Assembly (NCBI GenBank): GCA_900114405.1
Contig: FOSY01000001.1
Span: 62,001-126,000, forward strand
Length of the DNA: 64,000 nucleotides
Source: Lachnospiraceae bacterium KH1T2
GTDB lineage: Bacteria; Bacillota; Clostridia; Lachnospirales; Lachnospiraceae
Direction of reading: 5' to 3'
Part shown: in pieces, positions 6,175 through 54,736 of the stretch
Position numbering within the stretch: the stretch's first letter is position 1
Layout: each line of letters opens with the position of its first letter
Position numbers and translations under genes: made by a program
Notes under the pieces: model-generated
Told to the model about the DNA's origin: nothing
What the model saw: the letters and a program-made list of their open reading frames with translations, nothing else
The model's database searches: none

Positions 6175-6800
6175 CTCAGATCTACCTTCACCTTTCTGTC
6201 AACTACTGTTACTCTCCCATTTGCTATCAGATCGATCGCCTTAGGCATAATCTTCCATTCTGCCTGTTCCATAACACGTTTCTGAAGTATTTCCGGCGTA
6301 TCATCCTGCTGTATCTCTACAGCTTTCTGTAAAATTATCGGGCCGGAATCACACCCTTCATCGACAAAATGTACCGTCGCACCTGTCACCTTTACTCCAC
6401 GTTTAAGTGCCTCTTCATGAACTCTAAGTCCATAATATCCTACTCCGCAAAATGATGGTATAAGCGACGGATGAATGTTTATTATTTTATTAGAATATTT
6501 CTTAACAAGCTTTTCCGGCAATACCACCAGAAATCCAGCAAGTACAATAAGATCAGGACTTGCATCATCTATTGCAGAAAGGAGTGCGTCGTTGAACTCC
6601 TCAATCGACGCATAACCCTTTTTTGAAACAACAGCTGTGGGGATTCCGGCTTTTTCAGCTCTCTCCAAAGCCTTAACCCCTGCCTTATTACTGATAACTT
6701 TCACAAGTTCAGTATTAGTGATCTGCCCATCTCGTACGCCATCTATTATAGCCTGCAAATTCGTTCCACCGCCTGAAACGAGGACAGCTGTTCTCAGCAT
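6171..6800 (-). CDS. purN: Phosphoribosylglycinamide formyltransferase
   Basis: Transfers a formyl group from 10-formyl-tetrahydrofolate to GAR (third purine step). 209 residues, with the start [11 protein letters not shown], the catalytic Asn-His pair in NIHPSL and the downstream Asp in DEGCDSGP. Compared with the usual form, the segment after NIHPSL is [17 protein letters not shown], a slight expansion of the normal SFPG loop. The start overlaps the purM end by 7 bases and the gene ends in a 4-base overlap with purD, so the three are translationally coupled. Confidence 0.95.
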
Positions 6801-7819
6801 AAACGAACTCCCTTCTCACCGTTCTCTGCACGACCGATGATGAAGGCTTTTTCTCCAGCTCTTCTGATTGCTTCAACTGTCTTATCTGCATCAGATGGAT
6901 CAACCGCAAGGAGCATACCGATACCCATGTTATAAGTATTATACATCATATGCTCTTCGATTCCGCCATCCTTTGCGATCATTTCGAAAATCGGAGGAAT
7001 TTCATATGAATTCTTATTAATTACAGCAGTTATATCAGCCGGAAGCATTCTTGGAATATTCTCATAGAATCCGCCTCCTGTAATATGACTGCATCCTTTA
7101 ACCTTGACTCCGGCATTCTTAACTTCTCTCAGAGCCTTTACATAAATCTTTGTAGGTCTAATAAGTGCCTCTCCAAGTGTACATCCCAATGAATCAAAAT
7201 GTCTGCTGAGACTTGATTCAGACATCTCGAAAACTTTTCTTACGAGGGAAAAGCCATTTGAGTGAACACCTGATGAACCAATACCAACAAGCACATCTCC
7301 ATCTTTAATTGAGGAGCCATCGATCAAATTATCCTGATCTACTATACCAACAGCAAATCCGGCAAGATCATACTCATTTTCCGGATAAAAGCCCGGCATT
7401 TCAGCAGTTTCACCGCCAATAAGAGCAGCATCACTCTGCTTACAGCCATCAGCAACACCCTTTACGATAGTAGCGATCTTTTCAGGATAATTCTTACCGC
7501 ATGCAATGTAATCAAGGAAAAACAGAGGTTCTCCACCTGCACATGCGATATCATTAACGCACATTGCAACACAGTCTATTCCGACAGTGTCATGCTTATC
7601 AAGAATAAAAGCAAGCTTAAGCTTTGTTCCAACACCATCTGTACCTGAAACCAATGTTGGATTTTTCATTGTCATGAAGTTCTTCAGTGAAAATGCACCA
7701 CTGAACCCACCAAGTCCACCAAGGACTTCCGGACGCATTGTCTCTTTGACATGCTTCTTCATAAGCTCAACAGCCTTGTATCCTGCTTCTACATCTACTC
7801 CAGCGCTCTTGTAATCCAT
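6794..7819 (-). CDS. purM: Phosphoribosylformylglycinamidine cyclo-ligase
   Basis: AIR synthetase: ATP-dependent closure of FGAM to AIR. 341 residues, in the normal range. Recognised by [30 protein letters not shown] and [11 protein letters not shown]. Start ATG 7819 is preceded by GGAGGAG. It lies 55 bases after purE and runs into purN with a 7-base overlap. Confidence 0.96.
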
Positions 7820-7874
7820 GTTACTCCTCCAGCATTCTATGCTTTGTGCTAATATATTGTACCAATCAAATGGG

Positions 7875-8390
7875 TTATTTCTGTGTTTTAAGATACTCTC
7901 TCCAGCCGTCTTTTTTCAGCTTAGCATCTTTCTCAACTACCTGTTCCTTAAGATTTTCTTTATAATCCTTAAGTTTTTCCAGAAGCTTTTCATCGGATAC
8001 CGCAAGGATCCTTGCTGCAAGAATTGCAGCATTTTTTGCACCGTCGATTGCTACGGTTGCCACCGGAATTCCCGAAGGCATTTGCAAAATTGAGTACAGT
8101 GCATCATTTCCGCCCAATGCCTTTGAATACATCGGTATTCCTATGACCGGAAGGGGGAATATAGCTGCGCACATACCTGGAAGGTGTGCTGCCATGCCTG
8201 CACCTGCAATAATGACCTTAATGCCATTCTTTTCGGCATTGCTTGCCCACTCAAAGAATTCATTCGGTTCTCTGTGAGCTGAAATGATGTTCATTTCATA
8301 CTCGATGCCGAATTCTTCAAGCAGCTCTGCTGCCTTTGACATTACAGCCATGTCTGAATCAGATCCCATTACAATTCCTACTTTTGCCAT
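7875..8390 (-). CDS. purE: N5-carboxyaminoimidazole ribonucleotide mutase
   Basis: Class I PurE, 171 residues. Shows GSDSDMAVM, the ISAHREP active-site loop with its His, and [14 protein letters not shown], all expected for the octameric mutase that moves the carboxylate of N5-CAIR to C4. ATG 8390 has AAAGGAG upstream. No purK is in the window. First gene of the four-gene purine block, 86 bases after the aminopeptidase gene. Confidence 0.96.
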
Positions 8391-8476
8391 TAGATTAGTC
8401 TCTCCTTTTCATGGCGGTCGTACTTTTTTGTACGCCTATATCTTTAATCTGGTAATAGATGGAGCTCGTAAATTGG

Positions 8477-10489
8477 TTAAAACTCGTCAAGCGGTTTATT
8501 CAGTTCTTCTGTGCCTTTTACAACGAACCTTCCGCCTGCGATGATAGGATAGCGATTTCCATCGCTGTCCACTGCCGTAATAGTATCCAGCTCGTCATAC
8601 GGTATAGTCACATCCGTATGGCACTCAAAATATGTAAAGTTTGTATCACTCTTTCTTTTTAATGTATGCTCATTATCTTTGGCAATTATCTCTCGTCCGT
8701 CAGGGTTGTGAACAACCACATCTTCTTCTCTGCTGTAGCAGGTATCACCTAACGCAAAATGCGGACCTGTCTTCTCAGCTATTAATATTTCAAGCCTTGA
8801 GAAAATATTATATCTCTTTGCCATAGCATATGCTGTTGTATTGGTTCCTATCGCAAACTCACCAAGAGTAAGCGTTTTATGGTGATGAAGAATACCTGAT
8901 TCAATATATTTTCTATTTTCTTCTTCACTTTCAAAATTCGTACAGCTGTAATCTGTAACAAATCCATCTTTAAATGTAAACTCAAGATTTTCATAACGAA
9001 GCCCGAAAAGATAAACTTCTGAAACGAACAGTTTACCATTAGTTCCCGAAAGTTTAGGTGAAGTAAACACTTCACCGACCGGAATATTAACATCAGCAAC
9101 ACAATTTTCAAAAACTGTCTGCGTCTTTTTATCAGGAAGTTCATGAAGCTGGACTGTAATATCAGTCTTATTAGCCCCTCTTCCCTTTATCTCAACATGG
9201 TCTCCCATCTCAAGAACATCTATTATATGCTGCTGCATTATCTTATATTTTTCATAATCAAGGGTATTGAGTTTCACCGTCTCGCGGAATATCTCCTCAA
9301 AATCCTTTCCAATTGCCGGAACAGGATACGAAATAATCGTAAAGCTTCTTTCATCTCCACGAATGTACTGACTTGTAATTGTACCGCTCTTAGCCGCAAG
9401 TTCAACAGCAAGTTTATGCTGTTCTTCGCTAAGGGAATATGATTCCTCATGTGTCTCAGGTGTGAATGGTTTCTCGCCAAACACTTCCATAACAGCAGGA
9501 CCTGCATATTCGCGGGCTTCTTTTTTAAACTTTTCGAAAGTGCTCTTCATGACTTCAAGCTTACGAGTCACAAAAGCCTTATCCAGAAACAGGGCATTAT
9601 CTTCACGATGGTCATAATCCATCTGCTTATTTACCCAAGCTCCCTGAAAACCGTTTCTTCTCATACCATTACGAGATGCGGCATGGAGCTGACGACGATA
9701 AATAGTCGGTTCAAGTCCAAGCGCCCGGAAATTTTTTATAGATTCACGGACAACACGTTCAAAGCCCAGCACATAGTGAATGCTGACCGACTTTTTCTTT
9801 GAAAGATCTTTTCCTGTATTGATAAATCCGATGCGGAAACCTTCTGTATAGGTATCTGCCATCGCCTTGATATCTGCTTCATCGAGCGAATTTAAGAACG
9901 CAGCGACTCTTCTTGTATCATCATCGATATATTCGCCAAACTTATCAAGATATGAAACATCACTTAAATCTGAGTTCATGATGATATCTTTGGCAAAATC
10001 CAACGATGTATCAAGCATTTCTCTTGTTCTGAACGCTACAGTATGATCTGCATAATCACTTACAAATGAGTACAGTATTCCATGAATCTCCTCATTTGAA
10101 GGTTTCTCATTGTTTTCCGTATAAGATGCAGTAAATGCACTGTAAACTTCAAGAAAAACTTCTTCAAGGATAGTTTCATCCAGAAGTCTTCCTTCTGCTC
10201 TAAAAGCAATTATCCCAAGCAGCTCATAGGCAAGGAAAGAAAGCATCCTTCCCATTTCCTTACCACACTGCCTTACGGCATACACAGGATTAAACCAGCT
10301 GCTTCCATATTTTTCAGGAAGTGCAGCCTCATAGGAGGGCTCAATTATAAACTCTGCTCCTCTTTTGAAAAAATCCATATATGGTGCAGGAACTGCATTT
10401 TCATTTTCTATTTCTCTGATCCGTGACAAGCTAAGTTCACGGCGCTCAAGGATAAACTCTTTTTCCTCAGGCGAGTATAAATCCAGCAT
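8477..10489 (-). CDS. M29-family (aminopeptidase T-like) metallopeptidase with long N-terminal extension
   Basis: The C-terminal 330 residues match the M29 aminopeptidase pattern: VEIKGRGANKTDITVQ, NIPVGEVFTSPKL, TLGEFAIGTNT, EKTGPHFALGDTC and the His/Asp/Glu cluster near HNPDGREI. These are clan-typical metal ligands for a broad N-terminal exopeptidase acting on short peptides in the cytoplasm. The product is 670 residues, whereas classical M29 enzymes are about 370-410; the first 270 residues are an alpha-helical extension I do not recognise. ATG 10489 has GGGGAGG 8 bases upstream and overlaps the end of the preceding small membrane gene by 23 bases, so it is in that operon. Confidence 0.85.
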   Translation of the reverse strand: MLDLYSPEEKEFILERRELSLSRIREIENENAVPAPYMDFFKRGAEFIIEPSYEAALPEKYGSSWFNPVYAVRQCGKEMGRMLSFLAYELLGIIAFRAEGRLLDETILEEVFLEVYSAFTASYTENNEKPSNEEIHGILYSFVSDYADHTVAFRTREMLDTSLDFAKDIIMNSDLSDVSYLDKFGEYIDDDTRRVAAFLNSLDEADIKAMADTYTEGFRIGFINTGKDLSKKKSVSIHYVLGFERVVRESIKNFRALGLEPTIYRRQLHAASRNGMRRNGFQGAWVNKQMDYDHREDNALFLDKAFVTRKLEVMKSTFEKFKKEAREYAGPAVMEVFGEKPFTPETHEESYSLSEEQHKLAVELAAKSGTITSQYIRGDERSFTIISYPVPAIGKDFEEIFRETVKLNTLDYEKYKIMQQHIIDVLEMGDHVEIKGRGANKTDITVQLHELPDKKTQTVFENCVADVNIPVGEVFTSPKLSGTNGKLFVSEVYLFGLRYENLEFTFKDGFVTDYSCTNFESEEENRKYIESGILHHHKTLTLGEFAIGTNTTAYAMAKRYNIFSRLEILIAEKTGPHFALGDTCYSREEDVVVHNPDGREIIAKDNEHTLKRKSDTNFTYFECHTDVTIPYDELDTITAVDSDGNRYPIIAGGRFVVKGTEELNKPLDEF

Positions 10490-13647: not shown

Positions 13648-14720
13648 AAGTCGTTATCCATCTCCGCAAGTTTTTCCGCCTGCTCAGTTTCAGTAAGAGC
13701 ATCAATGACGCCATCTAATTCTCCATCCATCACTTTATCCAAAGAATAGATCGTCAGGTTGATCCTGTGATCAGTAAGTCTTGACTGCGGGAAATTATAT
13801 GTCCTGATCTTCTCAGATCTGTCACCTGTTCCCACCTGGCTTTTTCTGAGTGATGCTTCTTCCTCATGAAGTCTTGTTTTCTCAAGGAAGTATAACTTCG
13901 CGCGAAGCACTTGAAATGCTTTCGCCTTATTTTGAAGCTGTGATTTTTCATCCTGGCATGAAATGACTATTCCCGTCGGGATATGCGTAAGACGTACTGC
14001 AGAGTCTGTAGTATTTACGCACTGTCCGCCGTTTCCGGATGCCCGGAAGATATCGATCCTGCAATCCTTAGGGTCAATATTTACCTCTACTTCTGTCGCC
14101 TCAGGCATGATAGCTACAGTAACTGTGGACGTATGAATTCGTCCGCCTGACTCTGTCGCAGGTACTCTCTGTACTCTGTGAACACCGCTTTCATACTTAA
14201 GATGAGCATAGGCACCTACACCTGTAACCGTAAAGCTCACGTACTTCATTCCACCGATTCCGATCGACTCTACATCAGTAGTCTGAACCTTATAGTTATG
14301 ACGCTCAGCATATCGCACATACATTCTATAGAGCTGTGCAGCAAAAAGCGCAGCCTCATCACCTCCGGCTCCGGCACGTATTTCAACGATAACATTTCTA
14401 TCGTCATCCGCATCCTTAGGTATAAGCAGAAGCTTCAGATTACGAATAAGCTCTTCTTCAGCATTTTTCGCATCTTTAAGCTCCTCTTTTGCCATTTCCC
14501 TAAGCTCAGGATCATCTTCGTTGTTTAAGATATCAGCCGCTTCCTCTTTTGAAGCTTCATTACTTTTATATTTAAGATATGCTTCTACAACAGGAGTCAG
14601 AGAAGAGTGTTCTTTCATCAACTCCATATAACGATTGGAATCTTCGGCAGTCGCCGGATCAGCCAAAAGCCGATTCAGTTCCTCGTATTTCATTACCGTA
14701 TCTTCCAGTTTTTCAAACAT
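13644..14720 (-). CDS. prfA: Peptide chain release factor 1
   Basis: Reads UAA and UAG and triggers peptide release. 358 residues with the catalytic GGQ in [11 protein letters not shown] (about residue 233) followed by [10 protein letters not shown]. The codon-recognition region lies in domain 2. It overlaps prmC by 28 bases; PrmC methylates the Gln of this GGQ. The TAG interrupting the large surface gene at 52090 would be read by this factor. Confidence 0.96.
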
Positions 14721-48915: not shown

Positions 48916-51900
48916 TCAGTACTTTAACTCTCCAGAGAAACGTTCTCCGCTTATCGTTATGATTCCTGCGTTTGCGCTGTACTCAGATTTTTTAAGTTTT
49001 AACTTCTTTCCGTTGACTACAGCCTTTACTGACTTAACCGCACCTGACTTACTAAGCCTGATCTCAGCGTTTTCACCTGTAAGAGCAAGCTTATCTACCT
49101 TGAATGTAAGTGCTGTCTTCTTAACCTGCTTTAAAAGCTTTCTCTGAGCCTTAGAAGCGCCTTTTATGCCTTTGATATAGAATGTGGCTTCACCGGCCTT
49201 TTGATTATTTTTATATCTGAGCTTGAGCTTATCGCCCTTATACTCTGCTCCATCAACAGTTACCGTAATATCCTCTGCGCCAAATACTGTCTTCTTGCCA
49301 TTAAATGAAACTGTTTCCTTATATGTGACTGAAACATCATCTGAAAGCTTCTTCGTCACAGTAGATACAATCTCATTAGCAGAAACCGCATCATTTTCTG
49401 ATACAGCTTTATTTCCTGAAGCAGTGTCATTTCCTGAAACTGCACCGTTTCCTGAGGCAGTACCATTTCCTGAAACCGCGCTGTTTCCTGAAGTTGCAGA
49501 AGGTTCTGCATTATTGCCTGAAATTGAAGGTTCTGTAGTGTTTTCAGAAGGAGTTGGCTCTTCCGGGCTCACTTCTTCAAATCCTACAATGCCATTCAGA
49601 GCTTCCCATTCCCTAAGCTCTGAACCATCACCATTATAGTAAACGCTGTGTCCAGCAGAATTTCCATCCTCATCTGTTCCAAGTTCCTCTTTGACTTCAT
49701 TAAGGATGCGTGAAATTCCAAGTCGATTTGCATTAAGTTCATCCGCAAATTCTGAACCAGCCATAAACTCAGCACTTCTCGCAAAGTTATTGCTTACCGC
49801 ACTCTTAGTCACATCTGTACCTATCGGACGCGCTTCGATCTCAGTACCCTGATTGAGTATTTCAGCATCGCTATTGTAATAGTTGCCTCTTTCTTCAGAA
49901 ATACCGGCAGCTCTTCCCGAAATGATTCCAAGGTCAAAAGTTGTCTTTGAAGAAGAAACATTTCCTGAAGCATAGCTGTTTACGATGACGCCGCCGTCAA
50001 GTCCGACTATACCGCCAGCAGTTGCCTTATTATTATTACCTGATCCAACTGAAACATCACCAAGTGAATAGCAGTTCACAGTTGTTACACGGTTCTGCAT
50101 TCCCATGATTCCACCGGCATAAACCGTTGACTTATTAGCGAATGCCTTAAGCTCGACATCTGACCATGTATTGAGCATGCTTCCCCTGAGCAGATAACCT
50201 GCCACAGAGCCAACCTGGTCATAGCTATCCTGTGTATTAACTTCGATATTACCAGTTACAGAGCAGTTATCGATAAAAATTCCATCTTCACCAGCCCCGA
50301 TAAGTCCGCCGGCTCTTGTAGCCATTTCTATCTCAGCGTTAATATCCACATCTCTCAATTTAATATTTTTAAGAGTTACTCTGTTTACAGAAGCGCTTTG
50401 AAGTTTATTAGAATTAAAATCACCCTCTGTAACACCGAAAAGACCTACAGAGAATCCATTGTAAGGCTCGGCTTCTGTACCCATTTTAAGATTTTTTATA
50501 ACGTGATTTCCACCATCGAAGCTTCCTCTAAATGGATATATCGCAACAATGCTCGGACTTCCATTCACTCTCACCTGAAGTGATCTGCCGATTGGAAGCC
50601 ATTCCTTGTCGCTAAGTGTGATATCTGCTGTCTGACGGAACCACACACCTTTCCAGTTTACATCTTCATTAATTGACTCTGCAAGGTAGCGAAGCTGCTC
50701 TTCATTAGATATAAGATAAGGCTTCTCTTCTGTTCCCTCACCGCCTGCAAATTTTGAAGTATCAGCAGCTTCATAATCTGTGAAATCGCCGTAAACAGCC
50801 TTTTCCTTCGCTTTCTTAAAAGCTTCGTCAAACTTCTCACCCGAGTCATTTCCGGACAAAACTTCCGTTGATTCAATCTCATTATTTTTAACAACGATCT
50901 TTACAACAGTGCTCTTGTCTTCGCTTCTGCCGTACCATGTACCATTGTTTGCAGAAACAGTTTCTTCCTTTACGTTCTCAACTTCAGGCTTCACATATTT
51001 CACTGTGCCATATGCTGTATCAAAGACAACTCTCTTTGATGCTTCATCATACTTCCATCTCCTAAGTGCAGAAGCTGAAAGTCCAAACTCTGTAATATCA
51101 ACCGGAAATTCCTCAAAGAGCTCATTCATGCTTACTGCAATGCTCTTATAAGAATCAGCATCGTAACTTTTGATATCCTTTGTAAGTCCGCCTACATATG
51201 CAGTACCATCTTCATCACTAACATCAGGTGCAACAACAGTACCTACTGACTCTGGCGGATTAACACTCTTACCGTCGATCACCATTGACGCATTTTTATC
51301 GAACCAGCTGTCATAAGTCTTACCTATTCCTGTGATCCAGCCTGAAAGCATTCCTGCATATATTGAATACTCTGCTGTTTCAAGGTCAGCATCAGTATAA
51401 CAATTTACTTCAGAGCCCGCCTGTACACCTGCGATACCGCTTACTACAGCCATTCCCTCAAGACCATTTTCACGACTTCCGCTTCCATAGATCTTACCTG
51501 TTGAGTAAAGATTCGCATTAAGTCCTCTGTTATTAAGACCTACTATAGAACCTACTTCTGCAAGAGCTTCATCCTTTACAATACATGAAATATCCATGTC
51601 TGATGAAGAATTGATTATCGCACCCTTAAACTGGTAAGCTGCTATACCTGCTGCAAATGAATTTGATTTTGTTGAATATACAGAAATCTTACCGGAAGTT
51701 TTAACATTATCTATAACAGCTCCGCTATTATCATCCTCTGCATCACTATCCATAAATCCGGCGATACCGCCTACAAAAGCGGAAGATTCAGCAGTCACAT
51801 TGAAATATATATCAGATACATTAAGGTCATGCACTCTTGAATTTTCTCCAAGTCCGCCGAAAAGTCCAAGATAGCGAGTGTCTCTTGTAAGCGCAGAAGC

Positions 51901-53730
51901 CTTCTCCTCTGTACCAACTTTTAATCCGCTTATAACAAAGCCATCTCCATCAAAGTCACCATTAAATGCGTAATCACTTCTGCCGATAGGTGTCCACTCT
52001 TCGCCGGAAGCGTCAACATCTCCTCCAAGCTTTACATACTCACCTGTGTAATCCTGAGTATCACTGAGTGAAAGTGCAAAATTTCTAAGCTACTCTGCTG
52101 TCTTAATAACATAAGGATCTTCCTTCGTACCTGCTCCGCTCTCAAAAATATCAGCCGAAGTAACATCTTTTTCCCAATCCTTATCATCAAGAATGACGCC
52201 GTCTTCTGCTGCTGTCCAGCTCTTAAAGGTAATATCTGAAAGTCCAAGCTTATCAATATATGAACTCATCGTTTTGACATTTCCATTAAGTTCTGCAGCA
52301 AACTCAGCCGACTGCATATCAGCCTTCTTTTTTGAAGCAGCCTCTGCAATATTATCAAATGTAGTTCCAAAAGCTTTTGCTTCCTGAGTTTCTCCTTCAC
52401 CAGTTGCCGAAGTACACTCAACCTTTGCATCAGAAGCATAATAAAGCTGCTTTCTCGATGTATCTCCCTTAGATGCCATCATCCAGCCAACGATCTCACC
52501 TATGTAAGTTTCTTCAACTCCTGCATTTACTATAGCAATGTCGCTTAATGAATAAACATTCCACAGATATCCGCTGAACATTCCGGCAATTCCGCCAATA
52601 TAATTATTTCCATTTGAGTTATTAGGTGTTTTTACGTTTATTTCACCCTTTGAAGCAGCATTTGCAATGATCGCATTATTTCCTGCTACGCCTGTAACTC
52701 CACCAGCATAAACCATTGGCTTTTCTACCGGGCACTCTGCTGTGATCTTCACATCACTATATACATTTGTTAGCACACCATCCTTATTAACACGTCCAAC
52801 GATCGCACCTGTATGAAGCTGTGCTTTAACCTGCTCATTTGTCTTGATCTCGCCTGAAACAGCTACATTATCGATCTTACCGCCGCCGCTTACGATATCT
52901 CCGGCTACTGCTCCGGCTCTAAGCACATCAGCGTCATTTGAAACTTCAATATCTACATTCTTAAGATCGACATTTTTTACGACCGCAGAATTATTCAATG
53001 ATGAAAAAAGTCCTACATTTGCCTCTGCAGAGTAGTTTTCTGAAATTCTGAGATTTGTAATGGCATGATCCTTACCATCAAATGTTCCATCGAAAAGTGA
53101 ATCAGTATTATCTGATGCCTTTGCTTCAGCACCTATAGGATTCCATGAATCTATGTCTCCCAGATCCACATCTGCATCAAGTTCTACATATTGTCCTTTA
53201 TAAGTATTTCCTTCATCGACTGATACAGCAAAGTTTTTCAGCTGCTCAGCTGTTTTGATGATATACGGATCTTCCTTTGTTCCGCTGCCGCCGTCGAATA
53301 CTCCATGATCTTCCGCCTGCTCAAGCGCGTCTTCCACTGCCTGCTTTATACCCTCAGAGCTGCGTGTCGCACCTGATATACTCTCGACATCCGTAGAATC
53401 TGCCTTAACTATACTTTCGAACAACTCAACTGCTTTATTCCAAAAGTACTCAGTTTCTGTGTTGCTCACATTTTCAATCGAAGATATCTTTCCATCTTCA
53501 ATAGTGACTTTAAGCTTTATCTCGCCATTTCTACCTTTACCGACGCCATAATATTCACCATCCTGATATATGACTTTCTTGGCATTTGAACTCGCAGATC
53601 CATCTTCAACACTTTCTGCAGTATCAATATTTTCAGTTGCATATACTGCTGTTCCTGAAAATACTGTTCCACACACCATTGCTGCAGAAAGCGAAAGAGC
53701 CAATGCCGAATTGACTACTCTTCTTTTCAT
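48916..53730 (-). pseudogene. Secreted FMN-binding, GLUG-repeat surface protein interrupted by one in-frame TAG
   Basis: One 1604-codon frame, broken only at codon 547 (52090-52092), where TAG stands for the CAG (Gln) expected from the repeat: TKEDPYVIKTAE-stop-LRNFALS versus TKEDPYIIKTAEQLKNFAVS. Signal peptide ending near AVYA (residue 31); FMN_bind domain (about 52-140) with the FMN-attachment motif SGAT at 119-122; three T/EDP-starting repeat domains, each with an FDG...F pair and many GLUG-like GGIAG turns; a second FMN_bind-like segment without SGAT (about 925-1000); a seven-fold hexapeptide SGN-type linker; and a beta-rich C-terminal domain with no LPXTG or membrane anchor. Such proteins may handle electron transfer or iron/flavin at the surface. 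Preceded by a Fur-like box. Could also be a phase-off allele or a sequencing error. Confidence 0.8.
49366..49491 (-). repeat. Seven 18-bp units encoding a SGNxAV hexapeptide array
   Basis: 126 bases = seven in-frame units of 18 bp, encoding SGNSAV, SGNGTA, SGNGAV, SGNDTA, SGNKAV, SENDAV, SANEIV. It makes a flexible linker between the repeat domains and the C-terminal domain of the surface protein. In-frame unit gain or loss would change linker length but not the frame. Confidence 0.85.
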
Positions 53731-53807
53731 ATCGCTCCTCTTTTCTGATTAATTAAATACACCGTGTTTTCAGACGTATGTTTTTATTATCGTACAAAGG
53801 AGTGTTG

Positions 53808-53861
53808 GTTAGCAATAGCTAACTGATTAACTATTATCAATAATATTGATAATGATTTTCA
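53808..53861 (-). promoter_or_regulatory. Operator region with Fur-like box upstream of the surface flavoprotein gene
   Basis: Three elements in 54 bases, 78-131 bases before the start codon: inverted repeat GTTAGC-AATA-GCTAAC at 53808-53823; a perfect palindrome with 10-bp arms ATTATCAATA at 53833-53853; and TGATAATGATTTTCA at 53847-53861, one mismatch from the 7-1-7 Fur consensus TGATAATNATTATCA. GATAAT nearer the gene at about 53786-53791 could be a -10. Iron-responsive control is inferred from the box. Confidence 0.6.
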
Positions 53862-54661: not shown

Positions 54662-54736
54662 TCGGAGTGACGTGATTCGAACACGCGGCCTCTACCTCCC
54701 TAAGATAGCGCTCTAGCCAAACTGAGCCACACCCCG
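54662..54736 (-). tRNA. tRNA-Pro(AGG)
   Basis: 75-base cloverleaf on the minus strand: acceptor CGGGGTG/CACTCCG (one G-T pair), discriminator A, D-arm GCTCAGTTTGGCTAGAGC, anticodon stem CTATC/GGTAG with loop TTAGGGA, T-arm GCGTG-TTCGAAT-CACGT. Anticodon at 34-36 is AGG, reading CCU and (if A34 is edited to inosine) more. C1-G72 with A73 fits proline identity. No CCA is encoded. A-starting proline anticodons are less usual than TGG or GGG in bacteria. Confidence 0.9.

Follow-up and report, generated by a model that had tools for sequence, protein, structure and literature searches.

A probable recent nonsense mutation in the gene for a large, predicted surface flavoprotein of a Lachnospiraceae bacterium

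Among described proteins, those closest to the one discussed here are the FMN_bind flavoproteins flavinylated by ApbE, such as domain 1 of CbFMN4 (solved structure 8p2b), FMN being flavin mononucleotide; ApbE-attached flavins serve extracytosolic electron transfer, a Gram-positive extracellular system included, according to the portion of a preprint used here (PMC10979944). A second point of comparison is the beta-helix region of M26 immunoglobulin A1 (IgA1)-protease-like proteins (PF05342; 3n6z), the likeness being one of repeat fold only. Here, we describe a gene of Lachnospiraceae bacterium KH1T2 that lies in a stretch of 64,000 nucleotides (contig FOSY01000001.1, positions 62,001 to 126,000; hereafter the window, whose own numbering is used throughout) and is interrupted by one in-frame TAG. 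Like the flavinylated proteins, its product has an FMN_bind domain with an SGAT motif, and the genome holds one match to ApbE; unlike them, it joins one clear FMN_bind domain to long beta-helix repeats, and its flavinylation is predicted only. The interruption resembles the in-frame stops treated in the consulted sections of Belinky et al. 2021 (PMC7918605) in being a single stop in an otherwise conserved frame, and differs from those cases in that it is known from one genome only, with an orthologous stop in none of 13 homologues.

The gene lies on the minus strand, which the original prediction, made from the sequence alone, had left unstated. Its frame opens with an ATG at 53730-53728 and runs to 48919, where a TGA (48918-48916) closes it, giving 1604 codons if the TAG at codon 547 (52092-52090), the sole stop inside it, is read through. 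As had been predicted, the frames before and after the TAG share one phase, and the 1057 stop-free codons that follow align with orthologues across almost their full length, so that the frame past the TAG is not a matter of chance. The prediction was equally right that CAG stands at the matching position of the internal repeats (codons 163 and 1012) and that a truncated product of 546 residues would keep its FMN domain, which lies at residues 66-137. The parts of the locus are as follows.

48916-53730, minus strand: whole locus, an FMN_bind and beta-helix protein with one TAG in a frame of 1604 codons
52090-52092, minus strand: in-frame TAG, codon 547, at a column with glutamine in 13 of 13 distinct homologues
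52093-53730, minus strand: 546-codon product under normal termination, with a signal-peptide-like hydrophobic N-terminus (by eye), FMN_bind and the first beta-helix
48919-52089, minus strand: 1057 codons past the TAG, with more beta-helix repeats, a stretch akin to FMN_bind but lacking SGAT (by eye), a Ser/Gly/Asn-rich linker and a C-terminal module
53320-53535, minus strand: FMN_bind (PF04205), residues 66-137, with SGAT at 119-122

The most probable explanation, which we hold with reasonable confidence, is a recent and ordinary C-to-T nonsense mutation in the gene of a large surface flavoprotein. A profile scan of a collection of genome contigs gave 21 loci, from which the ten strongest (L119-L128) were used and 11 more distant ones left out; 15 homologue rows cover column 547, and since L094 equals L122 and L095 equals L124 as identical genes, 13 of them are distinct. 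In this alignment, a check that had been proposed at the outset, the column holds glutamine in every distinct homologue (12 CAG, one CAA) and a stop in none, while the aligned homologues L013 and L014 do not reach it. The equivalent position of the first repeat, codon 163, is usually but not invariably glutamine, with glycine in L122 and L125 and glutamate in L097.

Within the genus, 21 of 48 genomes (KH1T2 included) have some match, and four besides KH1T2 match at an expect value (E) of 0, namely those of L010, L011 and L012, which are full-length at 41-42% identity, and G027; in a sample of the family, a match with E of at most 1e-60 occurs in 6 of 397 genomes, KH1T2 and one congener among them. 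The copy in G027 (L013) is 74% identical over residues 866-1604, where a contig start cuts its frame and leaves codon 547 uncovered. A neighbouring gene of 346 amino acids, alpha-hydroxy-acid-oxidase-like by eye, is common to the window and G027, which identifies the G027 copy as the syntenic orthologue; a second search of that genome for the N-terminal piece did not find it.

The homologues also bear on whether the locus is really two genes, the first for a secreted FMN_bind protein of 546 residues and the other following it. Genuine adjacent FMN_bind genes split by a stop do occur in this genome, at contig C42, and these each have their own start and signal-like N-terminus, whereas here the first start codon lies 85 codons past the TAG, within the repeat region. 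Moreover, one open frame of 1091-1761 codons passes through column 547 in 12 of the 13 homologues: in ten (L119-L127 and L097) it is already open in the N-terminal region, L123 being cut by its contig beyond the column, and the frames of L096 and L098 begin just 212 and 158 residues before it, well past the equivalent of the window's FMN domain. The remaining homologue, the metagenome-assembled L128, is open across the column too, with a frame change upstream, and then runs off its contig. None of the 13 ends here as two separate genes, an outcome that the original prediction had named as fatal to it. Continuous homologue frames and the late start led us to reject the two-gene reading, to which we give very little credence. 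L128 itself (6187-8483) has its N-terminal part (6187-6789) in a different frame from the remainder (6504-8483) and is either a second disrupted copy in the FMN_bind beta-helix family or an assembly error.

At C42 (L108:16021-19038), the adjacent genes encode a lipoprotein-like protein of 124 amino acids and one of 867 amino acids, and in the latter a flavoprotein domain resembling fumarate reductase is joined to two repeats akin to FMN_bind (by eye). A TAA beside the FMN_bind match there was considered as a second in-frame stop and proved to be the boundary between two complete genes. A single-sequence scan of the collection used for the profile scan confirmed none of 23 candidate stretches, and a plasmid search gave no match.

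In the mechanism that we favour, a recent C-to-T substitution would have turned the conserved glutamine codon 547 into the amber TAG, and ribosomes with normal RF1 would stop there and release a protein of 546 residues. This product would end in the helix that opens the second beta-helix, still with its FMN domain and one beta-helix but lacking the later repeats and the C-terminal module. We infer that the TAG base is real in the organism, that termination occurs at it and that the truncated protein is impaired.

Whether such a mutation is recent can be judged from the codons behind it, where no further stop has appeared. Of 9513 single changes there, 439 create a stop, so that neutral drift would give one per ~0.7% divergence, and the 95% bound on age is ~2.1% divergence with uniform changes or 3.3% with transitions weighted, a bound that presumes downstream neutrality and has no frameshift term. 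Relative-rate counts for the window against L013 with three outgroups (23:22, 21:24 and 22:17) are near equal and thus give no sign of acceleration in the window copy. Dividing identity past the TAG by identity ahead of it gives, for the window, 0.98 with L126, 1.09 with L119, 1.19 with L122 and 1.20 with L124; among pairs of outgroups the quotient is 1.04-1.17. The ratio of nonsynonymous to synonymous substitution rates (dN/dS) between the window and L013 is 0.09, with dS saturated (1.9), and is largely a record of the period that preceded the mutation. It is the glutamine in all 13 homologues together with this lack of decay that speaks for a recent nonsense mutation, and the upstream Fur-like site described below, still intact, counts for it as well.

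Several points weigh on the other side. The TAG is known from one genome assembly of one strain; the nearest orthologue, L013, does not extend to codon 547; identity to L126 is slightly lower past the TAG, the three other outgroups being higher; and the set of transfer RNA (tRNA) genes found is incomplete, lacking those for Ala and Ile. Furthermore, the absence of decay is equally expected from a base-call error or from efficient readthrough, both of which the downstream data would fit as well as they fit a recent event.

A sequencing or assembly error, with the gene intact in the organism, is unlikely without being negligible. Against it, true nonsense alleles outnumber substitution errors in draft genomes. 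In its favour, the surroundings look intact, with glutamine in relatives, no decay and the upstream site kept, and the genome is a draft of 62 contigs (3.87 Mb, 98.57% complete). The sections of Belinky et al. (PMC7918605) used here cut both ways, since they expect a substantial fraction of artefacts among their raw cases and find in-frame stops to be common across bacterial genes.

A nonsense mutation further requires that TAG be read as a stop in this organism. For this we surveyed open reading frames (ORFs) of at least 150 codons by a greedy longest-ORF rule, with no gene caller, over 464 kb of the genome (the window and 400 kb more). The 335 long ORFs end in TAA (174), TGA (145) or TAG (16, the FMN_bind locus included); past the 15 other TAGs, 11 frames extend for at most 29 codons, and at the other four a further ORF follows with its start no more than 16 codons away. 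The window also contains the gene for RF1 (13656-14720), which scores 514.4 bits where 423.25 is required, and TAG is a rare but ordinary stop in this genome. The same survey found 22 same-frame pairs of long ORFs, and only at the FMN_bind locus does the downstream member have no start within 20 codons; on the question of an error it is neutral.

The rarity of TAG is what could be said for its being a sense codon here, reassigned or read as pyrrolysine. A search for amber suppressor tRNAs and pyrrolysine genes, which the original prediction had suggested, found no CUA anticodon among 57 tRNA genes, a set incomplete for Ala and Ile, and no PylS over the cut-off in the genome (best PylS_Cterm match 25.7 against 178.15). 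With RF1 present and the other TAGs behaving as ordinary stops, both of which contradict it, we rejected this alternative and give it next to no credence.

Leaky or programmed readthrough of the UAG, by a near-cognate tRNA-Gln or a suppressor tRNA, would make the full-length protein a regulated minor form. The rest of the frame is perfect and an inserted glutamine would restore the conserved residue; in addition, the portion of PMC7918605 drawn on here takes a dN/dS below 1 to mean that prokaryotes frequently read through in-frame stops and might control expression in this way. Against this stand the lack of a stop in any of the 13 homologues, the tRNA, PylS and RF1 results above, and RNA folding 3' of the TAG that is no better than in shuffles (z -0.20 for 101 bases, 0.86 for 80 bases). 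The same portion of that paper also holds that such stops seldom outlast polymorphism within populations. A tRNA-Gln with a four-pair anticodon stem, an idea taken from the part of PMC13092985 consulted, was ruled out, both tRNA-Gln(CUG) genes having the full five pairs. Conserved programmed readthrough was rejected on the homologues and the folding, and readthrough of any kind appears improbable; still less probable is an amber codon maintained as a low-level readthrough switch on an iron-regulated surface flavoprotein, under which most chains would be shed as a fragment with FMN and beta-helix but no C-terminal module and few would be full surface proteins.

The original prediction had also listed a phase-off allele, and here it fared badly. 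No direct or inverted repeat of at least 12 bases was found within 500 bases on each side of the TAG (51590-52590, the range to which the search applies), and no tandem array lies at codon 547, the only ones in the locus being at 49390-49493 and 52580-52599; a repeat-based phase switch at the codon was therefore rejected. A scan for promoters and terminators round the TAG returned two promoter-like sites, where 0.9 were expected, and no terminator. The prediction had favoured a 'recent or regulated' stop, and the first half of this gains from the conserved glutamine and the lack of decay, while the second loses from the homologues, the folding, the absence of a CUA tRNA or PylS among the genes found, the presence of RF1 and the lack of repeats.

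The affected gene probably encodes a large secreted flavoprotein, in which an FMN_bind domain, expected to hold FMN covalently, precedes the beta-helix repeats and the C-terminal module. The FMN_bind match (E 1.2e-13; 52 bits against a cut-off of 22) falls entirely N-terminal of the TAG and holds the SGAT-type motif at residues 119-122. A model of residues 53-880 predicted from nine homologues (mean predicted local distance difference test, pLDDT, 80.1; predicted template modelling score, pTM, 0.54) has an FMN_bind region followed by runs of short strands, which we interpret as two successive beta-helices; codon 547 corresponds to model residue 495, inside the predicted helix 493-504 that opens the second. 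The best solved structures matching the model are 3n6z, an IgA1-protease-like protein of Bacteroides ovatus and the top Foldseek match (E 7.9e-9), and 8p2b (phmmer E 6.3e-6; Foldseek template modelling score, TM-score, 0.87 over the target). Pfam gave a weak match to Peptidase_M26_N (25 bits, below the cut-off of 27.7) and no peptidase domain in the read-through protein, in which no HExxH motif was found either; the sole NCBIfam match was RnfG, below its cut-off, and a GLUG motif exceeds the cut-off in the orthologue L126. Residues 925-990 (50761-50958) resemble the first half of FMN_bind without SGAT, with no Pfam call, as they do in orthologues (by eye).

The remainder of the part past the TAG comprises the linker, with its array, and the last module.

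48919-49350, minus strand: C-terminal module of 144 amino acids, with weak relatives at six further sites of the genome
49390-49493: tandem array with an 18-base unit (a 36-base period was also called), in the Ser/Gly/Asn-rich linker preceding the C-terminal module

Copy number in the array could differ among strains and leave the frame unchanged. Pfam called no family on the module, whose relatives (30-42% identity, E 1e-10 to 1.2e-5) lie in frames of 391-1708 amino acids, a recurrence that would fit a common module for surface attachment or wall binding.

Upstream of the start codon, two further elements stand side by side.

53847-53861, no strand assigned: Fur-box-like palindrome with one mismatch to a 14-position consensus, 117-131 bases ahead of the ATG
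53786-53815, minus strand: promoter-like TTGCTA, 18 bases, GATAAT, beside the Fur-like box; picked by eye

Scored against a 14-position consensus that we take to be that of the Fur box, the palindrome is the only site with at most one mismatch in the 464-kb sample, and none of 2000 upstream regions resampled by a first-order Markov model reached its score. A box was present in all three congeners examined, with two in KH1P17 (one mismatch each) and best sites of two mismatches in NK4A144 and G047, scores reached by 1, 15 and 13 of 2000 resampled regions, respectively; the promoter-like element is largely conserved in the window and the three genus orthologues. Six other homologues (L120-L125), whose membership of the genus is not established for all, have no box at two mismatches or fewer, their best sites at three to six mismatches being at chance level. 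Over the whole window, three matches with at most two mismatches compare with 1.06 expected, and 8 of 100 shuffles reach three, so that we rely solely on the one-mismatch site and on its reappearance in congeners. The genome has four FUR-family matches over the cut-off. Further upstream, at 54662-54736, lies a gene for tRNA-Pro with anticodon AGG, and the genome also has two for tRNA-Leu (AAG); A34 anticodons such as these are unusual in bacteria.

The Fur-like site common to three congeners suggests iron regulation of the gene, and the protein may be made under iron limitation and expose FMN on the cell surface, where it might reduce ferric iron or haem. For annotation, the locus should be given as one gene with an internal stop, not as two genes. 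The stop codon itself matters little, in-frame stops being widespread in single bacterial genomes according to the consulted part of PMC7918605. A literature search on the family of large FMN_bind beta-helix proteins found no paper dedicated to it. The Fur-like site is a more useful by-product than the stop codon, and its occurrence upstream of family members in this genus makes an iron-dependent role of surface flavin open to test.

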